Below, piece by piece: positions 16,686-22,576 of a DNA stretch of 64,000 nucleotides. The stretch is taken from positions 62,001-126,000 of the forward strand of contig DASYRE010000050.1 of assembly GCA_036004685.1 (NCBI GenBank), in the 5' to 3' direction. The DNA comes from Candidatus Polarisedimenticolia bacterium. GTDB taxonomy: Bacteria > Acidobacteriota > Polarisedimenticolia > Gp22-AA2 > AA152. Numbering within the stretch: position 1 is the stretch's first letter; each line of letters starts with the position of its first letter. The translations under genes and the position numbers were made by a program. A model generated the notes under the pieces. That model did no database searches. It saw only the letters and a program-made list of their open reading frames with translations, and was not told the origin of the DNA.

Positions 16686-17072
16686 TCAAGCCTGCACGAC
16701 GGAGGGGAGGGTCACCGGGCCGGTGCCGGAAGGCAGAGACGGCAATACGGTGGAGACCTGCGATTTCGGGATGAAGCCGTCCGCGCCGCTGCTCAGGGCC
16801 GCCTCCCGGTAAACGTCCCCGCCGAAGGCGCTCATCATGATGATCTGGATCCCGGGCTGTTTCTCCTTGATCAGACGGACCGCTTCCAGCCCGCAGATCC
16901 GCGGAATCGCCAGATCCATGAGGATCAGATCGGGCTCGAGGCTGCGAGAAAGTCGCACCGCCTCCTCCCCGTTCTTCGCTTCCCAGACCACGTCGTGGTC
17001 TCGCTTGGCGCGGAGAATCCGCTTGATGGCGGCCATGCATTTCGGATCGTCATCCACAATCAAGATTCTCAT
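16686..17072 (-). CDS. Single-domain response regulator (CheY-like)
   Basis: 128 aa, a receiver domain only. Acidic pocket Asp7-Asp9 (VDDDP), phospho-acceptor Asp53 (LILMDLAIP), the Ser of MMSAFG, and the Lys of FIPKSQ are all present, so it should be phosphorylatable. There is no output domain. The start has AAAAGGAGCTTGC before the ATG. It lies 230 bases beyond the stressosome-kinase operon, with a possible terminator between, so it may be transcribed separately. It is a plausible second target of that kinase. Confidence 0.92.
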   Translation of the reverse strand: MRILIVDDDPKCMAAIKRILRAKRDHDVVWEAKNGEEAVRLSRSLEPDLILMDLAIPRICGLEAVRLIKEKQPGIQIIMMSAFGGDVYREAALSSGADGFIPKSQVSTVLPSLPSGTGPVTLPSVVQA

Positions 17073-17303: not shown

Positions 17304-17753
17304 TCAACGACTTGCCGGTTCTTCGGGGGCGGCCGGGTCCAGCGGGCATGGCGCCGGGGCGATCCGGGGACTGACGAAGACGCCTCCCGACCCCACCCGT
17401 CGAATCGCCGCGACCAGATCGTCGGCTGCCTGGCTCTTGAGCACGTAACCGTGCACCCCTGCTTCGAGAGCCTCCGCGACATAGGCGGCTTCGGCGTGCA
17501 TCGTGAGCAGGATGCTCTTCGTTTCGGGCAGGCTGCGCCGCAGGAGGCGGGCCACCTCCAGCCCATTGAGCAAAGGCATCTGCAGATCCAGGACGACCGT
17601 CTCGGGCCGCAGGGCCTGGGCCAGGCGGAGCGCTTCCTCGCCGTCGGCGGCCTCGCCGAGGACGGGAATCCCGTCCCGCTCCAGCAGGGCCTTCAGGCTC
17701 TTGCGGACCAGAGGGTGATCTTCCGCGATTAAAGCTCCGGCGACACGCGACAC
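17304..17753 (-). CDS. NarL-type receiver protein lacking its DNA-binding domain
   Basis: 149 aa. NarL/FixJ-like receiver: EDHPLVR, phospho-acceptor Asp56 (VVLDLQMP), Thr of LLTMHAE, Lys of YVLKSQ. Normal NarL proteins continue into a LuxR helix-turn-helix after the GG(R/V)xxSP segment; here the protein runs GGVFVSPRIA then a short Pro-rich tail and stops. No helix-turn-helix sequence can be read in the following 100 bases. The GTG start directly follows the TAA of the histidine kinase, so they are a cognate pair. The output must be through protein contact or phosphotransfer. Confidence 0.9.
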   Translation of the reverse strand: MSRVAGALIAEDHPLVRKSLKALLERDGIPVLGEAADGEEALRLAQALRPETVVLDLQMPLLNGLEVARLLRRSLPETKSILLTMHAEAAYVAEALEAGVHGYVLKSQAADDLVAAIRRVGSGGVFVSPRIAPAPCPLDPAAPEEPASR

Positions 17754-18674
17754 TTAGCTCCTCATCGGAAGCGTCACGCGGACATGGGCCCCTTCGCCGG
17801 GAGCCGACTGGATGCTGATCGTCCCGCGCAGCGCCTCGACGCGCTCCCGGATTCCCATCAATCCGAGGCCGCGACGAATCCGGCTCTCGGCCTCGGGGTC
17901 GAAGCCTTTGCCGTCGTCCCGGACCGAGGCCTGGATCTGGTTGCCTTCACGGCGCAAATCGATGCGGACCTCCTTGGCCCGGGAATGCTTCGCGGCGTTG
18001 TTCAACATCTCCTGGAAGATCCGGTAGAGCGCCGTCTCGAGCGCCGGTGGCAGCCGCTCCGCGAGTGAAGACTCCACGCTGACGGAAAGCCCGCTGCGCT
18101 TGCCGACGCTCTGTCCGAGGAAGCGCAAGGCGGGCAGCAGGCCGAGGTCGTCCAGCATCATCGGCCGCAGCTCGTGGGAGAACTGCCGCAGCCGCTCCTC
18201 GATCTTGTCCAGGATCTCCCTCAGGTCCTGCAGTTGTCCGCGCTGGGCCGGCTGCAGATCCATCCCCAGCTCCTCGAGCCCGAGGTGGACCGAGACGAGA
18301 AGCTGGGCCGCGTCGTCGTGGAGGGCGTGGGCGATGCGCTTCGCCTGCTCCTCGAGCAGCTCGTTGAGGTGTCTCAAGGCGCTGTTGGCCTCGCGAAAGG
18401 CGCGGTGCGTCATCTCATAGGAGGAGAGGCTCTCCTGGAAGAACCTGCCGGCCGCCTGGATCTTCTCCTCGCCGGGGGGAGACCCGGCCACCGAAGCCAT
18501 GAGTATCGTCTGCAGCTCGGCCATCTCCAGGATTCCCATCCCCGCGTTCATGGCTTTCCGGCCGAGCTCGTAGGCCTGCTCCAGGCCGGACTCGGGCGTC
18601 CCATCGAGGTATCGCAGCAGCGCGCCCCGGTACTCCGCCGCGAAGGCGGGTTCCACGGCGCTCACGGCTGCCAT
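17754..18674 (-). CDS. Histidine kinase with RsbU-like N-terminal domain
   Basis: About 306 aa from ATG 18674; GTG 18665, in a GTGA overlap with rsbX, is equally possible. The first roughly 90 residues (YRGALLRYLDGT, ELGRKAMNAGM, FFQESLSSYEMTH) resemble the RsbU N-terminal domain, which in Bacillus binds RsbT. Then comes a coiled coil and HisKA_3 with the phospho-acceptor in IAHALHDDAAQLL, and an HATPase domain (NNAAKHSRA N-box, DDGKGFD, GLGLMGIRER). No membrane span, so it is cytosolic. It sits directly after rsbX and before its receiver. RsbT is the likely activator: inference from domain and position. Confidence 0.9.
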   Translation of the reverse strand: MAAVSAVEPAFAAEYRGALLRYLDGTPESGLEQAYELGRKAMNAGMGILEMAELQTILMASVAGSPPGEEKIQAAGRFFQESLSSYEMTHRAFREANSALRHLNELLEEQAKRIAHALHDDAAQLLVSVHLGLEELGMDLQPAQRGQLQDLREILDKIEERLRQFSHELRPMMLDDLGLLPALRFLGQSVGKRSGLSVSVESSLAERLPPALETALYRIFQEMLNNAAKHSRAKEVRIDLRREGNQIQASVRDDGKGFDPEAESRIRRGLGLMGIRERVEALRGTISIQSAPGEGAHVRVTLPMRS

Positions 18675-19270
18675 CCCTCGTAACGGGCCGCCAGGACGAG
18701 CGCGTCGTCGTTCTCCTTCCAATGGCGCGCCATGATGCCCTTCACCATGAGGTCGACGTCCTTCTCGGAGCGGACCTCGCCGAAGAATTGCGGGGCGACG
18801 CCGTCCGTGACGAAAAGCAGGAGGTCCTTGGGCGAGAGGCGCAGGACGGAGACGTGGGGGGGAGGCAGCTGCCGGCCGACGATGCCGCCGCGCAGCGAGA
18901 GGCTCTCATGGGCCGCGGAGGCGTCGGCGTGGACGAGGAGCCCCTCGACGTTGCCGATGCCGACCCACTGGAGAGCGCCGTCGATCGTCAAGGAGGCCAG
19001 GCTCATGACGACTCCCCGCGTCCCGCGCAGCTCCTCGTGGCAGTGCTGGATCAGCTTGAGGACCGGCTCGCCGGCGTGGCGATCGAGGATCTGGACGGCC
19101 AGCGTGGAGGCGTCCGCCGCCTCGCGCCCGTGGCCGAGCCCGTCGATCGCCGCGAGCAGGACGCCCGAGGAGAAGCGCTTGACGAGGTACCGGTCCCCGG
19201 ACACCGATTCTCCCGGAAGAGCTCGCGTGGCCGCCGTCCAGACGAGCGGCCCGCAGGTCATTGCTTCCAT
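18662..19270 (-). CDS. rsbX: RsbX-type PP2C phosphatase of the stressosome
   Basis: 202 aa, a compact PP2C/SpoIIE fold with no sensor domain. Metal-site aspartates appear in AAIDGLGHG and FVTDGVAP, and near the end in ENDDALVLA. RsbX proteins reset stressosomes by dephosphorylating RsbS and RsbR. The start overlaps rsbT by 13 bases; an in-frame ATG three codons later is possible. Position in the R-S-T-X order strongly supports the call over a generic phosphatase. Confidence 0.9.
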   Translation of the reverse strand: MEAMTCGPLVWTAATRALPGESVSGDRYLVKRFSSGVLLAAIDGLGHGREAADASTLAVQILDRHAGEPVLKLIQHCHEELRGTRGVVMSLASLTIDGALQWVGIGNVEGLLVHADASAAHESLSLRGGIVGRQLPPPHVSVLRLSPKDLLLFVTDGVAPQFFGEVRSEKDVDLMVKGIMARHWKENDDALVLAARYEGWQP

Positions 19271-19659
19271 TTCTTCACCCTCACGGTGGTGCCGACGCCG
19301 ACGCCGGAGACGATCTCGAACTCGTCCATCAGGCGGCGGACGCCGGGGAGGCCGAGGCCCAAGCTCCCGGAAGTGGAATAGCCGGCCTGCATGGCCCGAT
19401 CGAGGTCCGGGATCCCGGGGCCTTGGTCCCGCGCTTCGAGCTCGATCCCTTTCCGCTCGCCGTCGTCCACGAGGCCGATGATGATCTCTCCCTGCTTGGC
19501 ATAACGCACGATGTTCCGCGCCAGCTCGGAGATCGCGGTCGCCACCAGCGTCGATTCGGTGGACGAAAGACCTATCTGGCGGGCCAGGGATCGTCCCTTC
19601 TCCCGGGCCGCCACGATGTCGTAATCGGTTCGTATGGGTAGCCGCGTCTCATCTTCCAC
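19258..19659 (-). CDS. rsbT: RsbT-type serine kinase (stressosome switch)
   Basis: 133 aa GHKL-fold kinase. The N-box SELARNIVRYA is the form typical of RsbT; ATP-lid motifs DQGPGI and GLGLPGVRRLMD follow. RsbT phosphorylates RsbS and RsbR upon stress, then leaves the complex to bind its output partner. It overlaps rsbS by 11 bases and rsbX by 13. The usual partner RsbU is absent from the window; the kinase encoded two genes downstream has an RsbU-like N-terminus instead. Confidence 0.93.
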   Translation of the reverse strand: MEDETRLPIRTDYDIVAAREKGRSLARQIGLSSTESTLVATAISELARNIVRYAKQGEIIIGLVDDGERKGIELEARDQGPGIPDLDRAMQAGYSTSGSLGLGLPGVRRLMDEFEIVSGVGVGTTVRVKKWKQ

Positions 19660-20035
19660 GACGATCCATCTCTTGTCTGCGTTGCTTGGCGCTCTTGTCC
19701 AGGAACTCGAGGCCCTCCTCGAGGTCCAGGGCGGTGGCGACTCCCTCCAGGGTGAGGCCGAGCTGGACCATGGCGAAAGCCACCTCGGGCTGGATGCCGA
19801 CGATGACCGTGTCGGCGCCGCGCAGCTTGATCATGTGCGCGATGTCCCGGAGCGTGCGGGAAGCGAAGGAATCCATCACGTCCAGGGCCGTCACGTCGAC
19901 GATCACGCCGAGGGACCGGAATTTCCCGACCCGCTCCACCAGGGCGTCCCGCAGGAGCATCAAGTCGGCGTCGGTGAGGGCCGACTGGATGCTGGCGATG
20001 AGATACGGTCCCTGCTTGAGGATGGGAACGGGCAC
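19649..20035 (-). CDS. rsbS: RsbS-type STAS scaffold protein
   Basis: 128 aa single STAS domain. Serines in the conserved DSFASRT loop (Ser56, Ser59) are the expected RsbT targets. RsbS forms the stressosome core with RsbR and holds RsbT until phosphorylated. It lies 12 bases after rsbR and overlaps rsbT. The basic tail KQRRQEMDRRGR is slightly longer than usual. Confidence 0.93.
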   Translation of the reverse strand: MPVPILKQGPYLIASIQSALTDADLMLLRDALVERVGKFRSLGVIVDVTALDVMDSFASRTLRDIAHMIKLRGADTVIVGIQPEVAFAMVQLGLTLEGVATALDLEEGLEFLDKSAKQRRQEMDRRGR

Positions 20036-20047
20036 GATGATCCTCCG

Positions 20048-20935
20048 TCAGGCGCGGGTCTCCGCGTTCAGGACGACCTTGTACCCCAGGAGCCGCTCGG
20101 CCTCTTCGATGCCTCCCTGGAGATCGCCGACGGTGGTCATCTTGATGAGGTCCACGCCGATGTTGACCAGGGTCTGGGCGATCTCCGGCGACAGGCCGGT
20201 GACGATGACCGTCGCCCCGAGGAGCCGGGACGCCTCGACCGTCTGGACCAGATGGTTCGCCACGCTCGAGTCCATCGCCGCCACGCCCGTGATGTCGATG
20301 ACCACGACGCGGGCGCGGTTCGTCCGGATCCCGCGCAGGAGCTGCTCCGTGAGCTGGCGGGCGCGCTGCGGATCGATGACGCCGATGATCGGCAGGATCA
20401 GCAGGCGCTCGCGCACCTGCAGCACCGGGGTGGAGAGCTCCCGGATCGCCTCCTGCTGCTCGCGGATCGTCCGCTCGCGCTCCTGGACGAAGCCGACCGC
20501 GACGGTGATGGCGATGCGGTTGGCGGCCGGCTCGTACGCGTCCAGGATCCGGTTGAGGGTCTGGAAGTCGGACTGGTACTTGGCGAACAGGGAGCGGGCC
20601 AGGACGTCGCGCAGGAGGAGGACGATGCCGACCACCTCGTGGGTCTCGACGCCCCGGGGGATGATCCTCTCGGAGAGGTTGCGCGCGTAGGCCTGAAGGG
20701 TCTCGAACGTCTCCGTCTCCAGGGCCTCGACGTAGTTGTCGTAGACGGAGGTCGCTTCGGCGAAGATCTCCTGCTCGGTCATCGCGGTGAGCAGCCGGGC
20801 TTCCGTGATCCGCCGGGCCCATTCCTCGCGCAGCTGGGTGCGATTCTCTCGGAGGTGCGCCACCAGCTCGCGCAGCAGGTTGGTGGTGTCGGCGCTCTCC
20901 CGGGCGCCGCGCTTTCGAGGCTCTGGTTCTTTCAT
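20048..20935 (-). CDS. rsbR: RsbR-type stressosome sensor/scaffold
   Basis: 295 aa from an ATG preceded by GGGAGGAGCGAACGTCC. An N-terminal helical, globin-like sensory region (about 25-165) without a haem-typical proximal histidine motif that I can assign is joined by a helix (RERTIREQQEAIRELS) to a C-terminal STAS domain. The motif PEIAQTLVN keeps the threonine equivalent to the second RsbT site in Bacillus RsbR; the first site is occupied by DSSVANH, serine instead of threonine. It is the first gene of the R-S-T-X-kinase-receiver operon. The ligand sensed is unknown. Confidence 0.92.
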   Translation of the reverse strand: MKEPEPRKRGARESADTTNLLRELVAHLRENRTQLREEWARRITEARLLTAMTEQEIFAEATSVYDNYVEALETETFETLQAYARNLSERIIPRGVETHEVVGIVLLLRDVLARSLFAKYQSDFQTLNRILDAYEPAANRIAITVAVGFVQERERTIREQQEAIRELSTPVLQVRERLLILPIIGVIDPQRARQLTEQLLRGIRTNRARVVVIDITGVAAMDSSVANHLVQTVEASRLLGATVIVTGLSPEIAQTLVNIGVDLIKMTTVGDLQGGIEEAERLLGYKVVLNAETRA

Positions 20936-21082: not shown

Positions 21083-22576
21083 TTAACGGGCGCTGCGCGT
21101 CCGATCTTTGGCCCAGGCGCGCAGAGAGTCGATTTTCTGGGACATCGTCCGGGCGATGGGGCGGGTCCGGGAGATCTCCTCCAGCAGCGAGTCGGTCGAC
21201 AGCTCCCGCCGGCCGGAGAACGCGGTGTAGAGGCCGGCGACGATCGCCTGTTCCACGTCGGCGCCGCCGTAGCCTTCGGTGGCGCCGACGAGCCGCGTGA
21301 GGTCGAAGGCGCCGGGATCCTTGCCGCGCTTCTTCAGGTGGATGGAAAAGAGAGCGGCGCGGGCCTCGGCGTCGGGCAGATCGAGGAAGAAGATCTCGTC
21401 GAACCGCCCTTTCCGGAGGAATTCGGGAGGCAGCCGGGAGACGTCGTTGGCGGTCGCCACGACGAAGACGTCCCCCTTGCGGTCCTGGAGCCACGAGAGA
21501 AAAGTCCCGAAGATCCGCGTGGAAACGCCGCCATCCTCCTCCCCGCCGGAGACCGCGAACGCCTTCTCCAGCTCGTCGATCCAGAGGACGATGGGAGCCA
21601 TCTTCTCGGCCGTCTCCATGGCCCGCTTGAAGTTCTTCTCCGTCTCGCCGACGTACTTGTCATAGAGACGCGTGGGATCGAGCTTCAAGAGCGGGAGCGC
21701 CCATTCGCGCGCCACGGCCTTGGCGCAAAGGCTCTTGCCGCAGCCCGGCACCCCCAGCAGGAGGACCCCTTTCGGAAACGGGAGGCCGAACTGCGCGGCG
21801 CGGGCCGGATCCCCGAGGAGAGCGCGCCGATCCGCCAGCCACCCCTTCAAGCCGGCCAGCCCGGCCACGTCGGACATCTTCTCCCCGGCGGGAAAGTACT
21901 CCAGGATCCCTTCCCGCTCCACGAGAGCTCGCTTCGCTTCGACCACTGCCTGGATGTCCTCGGAGGAAAGCTTCCCGTCCTCCACCACGACGCGCGTCAG
22001 GATCCTCTCCGCCTCGGCCAGCGTCAGCCCTTTGAGGTTGTTCAGCAGCCGGGCGAAGTCGTCCGCCTGCATCTCGACCCTCAGCGACATCCGGGCGCCG
22101 AGATCCTTGAGCACCCGCTGGAGCAGCGCCCGGTAATCGTCCGGCTCCGGAAGAGGCAGGTCCACGGTGGCGCTGACCGCCTTGAGCGCGTCCGGCAGCG
22201 TGATGCCGGTTCCCGTGAGCACGATGGCTCCGGTCATCTTGCTGAACTGTCCCGCCGCGTCGGCCAGGCGGGCCGCCACGATCCGGTCGTCGAGATACGG
22301 TCCCAGGCCGTCGAAGTGGTAGATCGCCGGAAAAGAGCTCGCTTCCACGTGCGCCAGGGCCTGGCCCGGATCGGCCGTGCCATAGACCGATCCCTCGACG
22401 CCGTCGCGCCGCAGTCCCTTCGTCCGGCTCCACAGGAAGTAGGGGAGGCCCAGCTCGACGGCCAGCCGCCGCAGCAGCGCGCCGGCGCGCTCCACTTCCG
22501 CCGTTTCGACCTGGATGACGCAGTAGCGTGACTTGATGAGAAGGAGGAGATCGTTGAGCCGGTCGTTGGCGGGCAC
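21083..22576 (-). CDS. Ycf46-like AAA+ ATPase
   Basis: 497 aa. A degenerate N-terminal P-loop-like half (about 1-200) is followed by an intact AAA module: Walker A GVPGCGKS (275-282), Walker B LWIDELE (Asp334, Glu335), sensor ATAND, and arginine fingers in RKGRFDEIF. This domain order is that of Ycf46 proteins, conserved in cyanobacteria and scattered bacteria and linked there to inorganic-carbon stress; the substrate is unknown. GTG start with GAGG upstream. It has its own sigma-70-type promoter. Confidence 0.85.
   Translation of the reverse strand: MPANDRLNDLLLLIKSRYCVIQVETAEVERAGALLRRLAVELGLPYFLWSRTKGLRRDGVEGSVYGTADPGQALAHVEASSFPAIYHFDGLGPYLDDRIVAARLADAAGQFSKMTGAIVLTGTGITLPDALKAVSATVDLPLPEPDDYRALLQRVLKDLGARMSLRVEMQADDFARLLNNLKGLTLAEAERILTRVVVEDGKLSSEDIQAVVEAKRALVEREGILEYFPAGEKMSDVAGLAGLKGWLADRRALLGDPARAAQFGLPFPKGVLLLGVPGCGKSLCAKAVAREWALPLLKLDPTRLYDKYVGETEKNFKRAMETAEKMAPIVLWIDELEKAFAVSGGEEDGGVSTRIFGTFLSWLQDRKGDVFVVATANDVSRLPPEFLRKGRFDEIFFLDLPDAEARAALFSIHLKKRGKDPGAFDLTRLVGATEGYGGADVEQAIVAGLYTAFSGRRELSTDSLLEEISRTRPIARTMSQKIDSLRAWAKDRTRSAR

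Follow-up and report, generated by a model that had tools for sequence, protein, structure and literature searches.

Genes of the stressosome operon

We analyzed a stretch of 64,000 nucleotides (the window) from Candidatus Polarisedimenticolia bacterium (assembly GCA_036004685.1, contig DASYRE010000050.1, positions 62,001 to 126,000), which carries a set of stressosome genes together with the genes of a histidine kinase and a receiver. The order rsbR-rsbS-rsbT-rsbX-kinase-receiver constitutes a single tight operon on the minus strand (20935-17304). This confirms the preliminary description of the DNA, which had reported that the six genes overlap or abut in one operon; all six were located as described. 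A gap of 12 nt separates rsbR and rsbS, overlaps of 11, 13, and 13 nt join rsbS to rsbT, rsbT to rsbX, and rsbX to the kinase gene, respectively, and the kinase and receiver genes abut. The Pfam domains of all six proteins scored above the curated cut-offs. The features are as follows, with coordinates in the window.

20048..20935, minus strand: rsbR, with a sensor-like RsbRD_N N terminus (25.3 bits; cut-off, 24.3) and a STAS domain (60.8)
19649..20035, minus strand: rsbS, STAS scaffold protein, phosphoserine site retained
19258..19659, minus strand: rsbT, HATPase_c_2, GHKL switch kinase, equivalents of R19, R23, N49, and D78 retained
18662..19270, minus strand: rsbX, SpoIIE/PP2C feedback phosphatase (32.1 bits; cut-off, 25)
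17754..18674, minus strand: cytosolic histidine kinase of 306 amino acids, with RsbU_N (residues 14-88), HisKA_3, and HATPase_c
18411..18635, minus strand: RsbU_N domain of the kinase (PF08673 match), the predicted docking site of RsbT
17304..17753, minus strand: response regulator consisting of a receiver domain alone (Response_reg), lacking the LuxR helix-turn-helix (HTH) of its relatives
16686..17072, minus strand: CheY-like receiver of a single domain that may be associated with the operon; receivers related to it adjoin the operon in two related genomes

All four stressosome parts are encoded together, namely, RsbR with its STAS domain, the STAS protein RsbS, the GHKL protein RsbT, and the PP2C protein RsbX. 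For the kinase, the ATG at 18674, which is preceded by gagg and lies inside the end of rsbX, was preferred over a possible TTG at 18722.

The RsbU_N domain of the kinase and its predicted RsbT contact

The preliminary description had proposed that the first 90 or so residues of the kinase resemble the N-terminal domain of RsbU, with the PP2C phosphatase replaced by HisKA_3/HATPase, and had named a profile search as a check. In that search, residues 14-88 matched RsbU_N (PF08673) with 32.2 bits (cut-off, 25.5; E = 1.2e-7), and the same domain scored 35.1 bits (E = 4.9e-8) in the genome-wide search. A leave-one-out profile of the relatives gave 88 bits for the window domain and at most 10.5 bits for 200 shuffles. 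When a profile of 13 N-domains was compared with the PDB, the sole matches at E ≤ 1 were the RsbU entries 2j70, 2j6z, 1w53, and 2j6y (E = 9e-7 to 1.5e-5). The replacement was also borne out, since the RsbU_N protein carries HisKA_3 (25.4 bits; cut-off, 24) and HATPase_c (68.3 bits) and no PP2C domain.

The catalytic core of the kinase is preserved. Its H-box reads LHDDAAQ and retains the HDxxxQ motif, and the N, G1, and G2 boxes are intact (the His box and the N/G boxes are at residues 118, 225, 253, and 269). In HisKA_3 kinases, HDxxxQ is associated with phosphatase as well as kinase activity. The receiver retains the acidic pair, the phosphorylated Asp, the Thr, and the Lys. An AlphaFold2 single-sequence model of the N-domain, which was weak (predicted local distance difference test [pLDDT] score of 66), showed four helices, the last of which extends into the linker.

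In Bacillus subtilis, RsbT directly activates RsbU through the RsbU N-domain and linker, and both docking and linker ordering are experimentally supported (PMC12143880). RsbU E24 and RsbT R19/R23 are among the residues implicated in this binding (PMC12143880). We compared the window proteins with B. subtilis RsbU and RsbT sequences. Residues 8-88 of this RsbU agree with PDB 2j70 except where that entry is itself substituted, near residue 78, and for both proteins the numbering matches the published one (PMC12143880). The window kinase retains the equivalents of E24, L27, A30, R35, and E75 of RsbU, and the linker, which bears on an R91/D92 pairing between RsbT and RsbU, aligned ambiguously. Among 32 RsbU_N domains, the E24 and R35 equivalents were present in all 32 and that of E75 in 31, and R19, R23, N49, and D78 of RsbT were each conserved in 35 of 35 RsbT sequences.

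We regard the operon as a stressosome output operon, in which freed RsbT would dock on the RsbU_N domain and switch the HisKA_3 kinase, which would act on the adjacent receiver (probability of about 0.75). The preliminary description had also interpreted the operon as one in which freed RsbT switches the kinase. This interpretation is partly supported, in the half that can be read from the DNA itself: genes, domains, catalytic residues, operon structure, and conservation. We know of no demonstration that RsbT binds and switches a histidine kinase.

Several observations weigh against docking as known from Bacillus. The equivalent of RsbU Y28 is never Tyr in the set of 32 domains (Glu in the window), and the positions of I74 and I78 vary; loss of Y28 in the Bacillus protein abolishes RsbT binding. 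Because of these differences, the predicted RsbT-kinase interface must differ in detail from the Bacillus RsbT-RsbU interface. The equivalent of RsbT D92 is Ala in the window RsbT. Conservation of R19/R23 could instead serve binding to the stressosome and is thus not in itself proof of docking. Finally, the N-domain model (pLDDT of 66) gave no Foldseek match at E ≤ 0.001 and had no RsbU entry among the best matches listed, although it was too weak for this outcome to count as negative.

In another explanation, RsbT would not dock on RsbU_N but would phosphorylate the kinase or the receiver on Ser/Thr. The missing Y28 contact is in its favor, as is the retention of the kinase residues N49 and D78 in RsbT, and transient phosphorylation by RsbT has been proposed for Vibrio, in which RsbU_N is absent (Heinz 2022; PMC9237108). 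However, the kinase activity of RsbT is not required for RsbU activation in Bacillus, according to the title of Kang 1998 as cited in PMC9237108, and phosphorylation gives no reason for RsbU_N to lie invariably behind rsbTX. We consider this explanation very unlikely.

Distribution of the operon and its phosphorylation sites

The preliminary description had suggested surveying how often RsbU_N kinases lie next to rsbRST, and the survey showed a regular association. In 396 Acidobacteriota genomes, PF08673 was found in 14 genomes (15 proteins), and 13 of the 15 proteins were directly behind rsbT or rsbTX. An RsbS close to that of the window was present in 15 Acidobacteriota genomes. The contig runs past rsbX in 11 of them, and an RsbU_N protein, mostly a HisKA_3 kinase, was encoded there in all 11. 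At L216-L218, the contig breaks off at either rsbT or rsbX, and the exception among the close-RsbS loci is G289 (L219), which lacks rsbT at the expected place. When the whole kinase was used as the query for related loci, mostly NarL/DesK-type kinases were obtained, matched over the catalytic core alone; the 19 genomes of these matches that were searched yielded a single RsbU_N match. The related operons of the first set contained no match to the AAA ATPase gene upstream of the window operon (21083-22576).

Other outputs carried by the RsbU_N proteins were a PAS-PAS-HisKA_3 kinase (L104), a HisKA kinase (L102), and a PAS-GAF-HisKA-REC hybrid (L101). At L107 (G317:C303, 3645-5906), rsbRSTX and another rsbT-like gene are followed by the gene of an RsbU_N-GAF-Sigma54_activat-HTH_8 protein; the RsbT of this stressosome would act on an enhancer-binding protein of sigma54. 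Our literature search turned up no published description of such a stressosome. The RsbR of L107 is a Protoglobin-STAS protein. A second, distant group of Acidobacteriota RsbS proteins (about 40% identity) is accompanied by RsbT-like/PP2C and other GHKL proteins instead, and no RsbU_N domain was detected in this group. At L221-L229 and L231 of the distant group, rsbR-S-T is followed by open reading frames matching both the RsbT and RsbX queries (apparent GHKL-PP2C fusions), with further GHKL/receiver proteins behind, which is a different output design.

The operon was also found in a second phylum. The N-domain profile matched 19 of 95 genomes from the phylum to which a named Methylomirabilota record belongs, and 18 of these 19 had the order rsbR-S-T-X-kinase-LuxR regulator, in most cases followed by another regulator. 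In the phylum to which a Gallionella record belongs (by its name, Pseudomonadota), PF08673 was rare, with 9 of 399 genomes containing it. In this phylum, L180 has the arrangement rsbRSTX-RsbU_N-HisKA-REC, and at L176 and L178 an rsbT-like gene is accompanied by RsbU_N proteins encoded in tandem, one of them being RsbU_N-PAS-HATPase-REC. A trio of rsbT, RsbU_N kinase, and LuxR regulator genes was found at L098 (7436-9484) in genome G145, in which no RsbS match was obtained. The L098 RsbT is one without a detectable stressosome, and its G-box is divergent.

The survey also bears on the possibility that RsbU_N is a dimerization domain only, that the kinase senses another signal, and that its location beside rsbRSTX reflects co-regulation without RsbT contact. 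The isolated RsbU N-domain is indeed a dimer (PMC12143880), and two RsbU_N kinases of the sample (L109 and that on contig C42 of the window genome) have no adjoining rsbT. However, every rsbT-linked kinase has the E24 equivalent, whereas the unlinked L109 kinase has lost it. The unlinked C42 kinase keeps E24, but much of the conserved AYELGR stretch is lost (ASDLGL). In addition, the proteins that carry RsbU_N behind rsbTX have several outputs that are not related to one another (HisKA_3, HisKA hybrid, and sigma54 activator). A role in dimerization alone appears very unlikely to us, and RsbT docking remains the preferred function of the domain.

We also examined the phosphorylation sites of the stressosome scaffold, for which the RsbR phospho-positions were marked by means of Ala-substituted PDB entries. 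The phosphoserine of RsbS (Ser59 equivalent) was kept in 32 of 32 stressosomes of the clade. In RsbR, the equivalent of T171, the main phosphothreonine, is Pro in 28 of 32, including the window, and the equivalent of T205 is Ser or Thr in 27 of 32 (Ser in the window). Because the RsbS Ser is invariant and the T171 equivalent is mostly Pro, it is likely that in this clade the release signal is carried by RsbS, plus at most one RsbR site.

The receiver, the host genome, and the proposed output

The receiver gene abuts the kinase gene, and in this genome the relay proposed in the preliminary description would end in a receiver that lacks a DNA-binding output domain. The window regulator consists of REC only, without a GerE HTH, and is not a NarL/LuxR-type protein with REC and HTH. 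At the same operon position, the regulator has a GerE/LuxR HTH in seven Acidobacteriota HisKA_3 operons and in the L098 trio, and the HTH query matched the first regulator in 18 of 18 Methylomirabilota operons. A search for a decayed HTH 3' of the window receiver gave a score of 25, compared to a shuffle mean of 22.9, and 53 of 200 shuffles scored as high. A simple frameshift was ruled out as the cause of the missing HTH, as no downstream frame reads as an HTH. In the receiver tree, the window REC is on a long branch. The REC-only output is not without precedent, because REC-only partners also occur with the HisKA-type RsbU_N kinases at L102 and L180. The CheY-like receiver at 16686-17072, about 230 nt downstream of the operon, groups with the receivers that adjoin the operon in two relatives.

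The rpoB tree placed the window genome inside the Acidobacteriota with full support. The genome is 3.84 Mb and 100% complete, and searches of its contigs, on which all genome-wide statements rest, found one close RsbT and two RsbU_N proteins. In line with the claim that there is no sigma-B factor, no SigB/F/G-type sigma factor in the genome exceeded the curated cut-off, the best match having 132.6 bits against 234.35. Of the parts of a SigB cascade, neither such a sigma factor nor a PP2C domain on the RsbU_N protein of the operon was found. This does not mean that partner switching as such is absent from the genome, because an RsbW-like ATPase gene (97.7 bits) adjoins a STAS anti-anti-sigma-like gene on contig C16 (L124, 1097-1911). 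A mutS-like gene lies next to this pair, on the other strand.

The second RsbU_N kinase of the genome is encoded on contig C42 (L106, 5523-9561), with a LuxR regulator gene behind it, another LuxR gene upstream on the other strand, and no adjacent rsbT. It is sister (99/99) to the L098 kinase, its RsbU_N domain is more diverged than that of the window kinase, and its HDxxxQ position reads HNEAGG. We considered an extended scheme that includes this kinase, in which the operon kinase would charge single-domain receivers only (17304-17753 and perhaps 16686-17072), and these would either make protein contacts or draw phosphate in competition with the paralogous RsbU_N kinase and the LuxR regulators of C42. 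The stressosome would then gate a second two-component system and not a promoter directly, and one RsbT would control a split output. We hold this scheme to be unlikely.

It is also doubtful that the operon is decaying in this lineage, with loss of the HTH having uncoupled the relay and signaling having passed to the C42 kinase and regulator pair. The HTH-less receiver on its long branch and the existence of a second RsbU_N kinase with LuxR regulators are consistent with decay. However, all six genes of the operon are open, with catalytic residues and the overlapping arrangement kept, and the C42 kinase is itself the more diverged in RsbU_N and is without HDxxxQ. The REC-only partners of other RsbU_N kinases likewise argue against decay.

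The preferred mechanism, RsbT docking on the kinase, would proceed as follows. The scaffold of RsbR and RsbS would sequester RsbT. Upon stress, RsbT would phosphorylate RsbS, and perhaps RsbR at its remaining Ser site, and would be released, and RsbX would reset the complex. As suggested by the biochemistry of RsbU, free RsbT would dock on RsbU_N in the neighboring cytosolic kinase, a dimer, and stiffen or order the helical linker of the kinase, thereby shifting the balance between kinase and phosphatase activities of HisKA_3. The kinase would then move phosphate on or off the adjacent receiver. In nearly all relatives, the LuxR-HTH regulator would change transcription directly. Since the HTH is gone in the window genome, the probable mode of action of the receiver there is protein contact or competition for phosphate.

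Compared with known systems, the operon shares homologues of RsbR, RsbS, RsbT, and RsbX and the RsbT-docking RsbU_N domain with the RsbRST-RsbU-RsbV-RsbW-SigB pathway of B. subtilis. It differs in having HisKA_3/HATPase in place of PP2C, no RsbV/RsbW/SigB cascade in the operon, Pro at the RsbR T171 equivalent, and no Tyr at RsbU position 28. RsbU_N on another enzymatic output is found in MtG of Moorella thermoacetica, reported to be RsbT-controlled (Quin 2012, as cited in PMC12143880), where the output is a GAF-GGDEF diguanylate cyclase and not a histidine kinase. The preliminary description had given Vibrio as an example of RsbRST modules linked to two-component systems. In the D1/D2 system of Vibrio vulnificus, rsbRSTX is indeed followed by two-component genes without sigB, but the wiring is not that of the window, since D1 has no RsbU_N and an RsbT-D1 interaction was not detected (PMC9237108).

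The closest parallels are in Proteobacteria. RsbU_N signaling proteins downstream in rsbRSTX loci and HisKA-REC phosphorelays were described by Heinz 2022 (PMC9237108, Fig. 3), and an AlphaFold2 model of the NreB-like RsbU_N kinase MBI3545564.1 was presented in eLife 2025 (PMC12143880, Fig. 5E). As in the window, rsbRSTX is followed by an RsbU_N-like signaling protein with a histidine kinase/REC output, and the same mechanism through RsbT and the linker has been proposed. The cases of Heinz are from loci with globin-coupled RsbR, whereas the window is from Acidobacteriota and has an RsbR with RsbRD_N and a receiver without HTH. The wiring of a stressosome to an RsbU_N histidine kinase is therefore not conceptually new (PMC9237108, PMC12143880). 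What is new is that it occurs as a fixed operon in two further phyla, that Thr is replaced by Pro in RsbR across the clade, and that the receiver in the window genome is without an HTH. We likewise found no description of a diverged RsbU_N kinase that is accompanied by LuxR regulators but has no rsbT of its own, as on C42. Literature searches pairing stressosome with Acidobacteria, or stressosome or RsbT with Rokubacteria or Methylomirabilota, returned nothing relevant among the matches listed.

Altogether, the RsbU_N link from stressosome to two-component system is maintained as a conserved operon in Acidobacteriota and Methylomirabilota and is not a proteobacterial curiosity. It offers about 30 natural RsbT-kinase pairs for testing the proposed mechanism of an exchangeable docking domain, and the Thr-to-Pro swap in RsbR provides a natural test of the extent to which RsbT release depends on RsbR phosphorylation.

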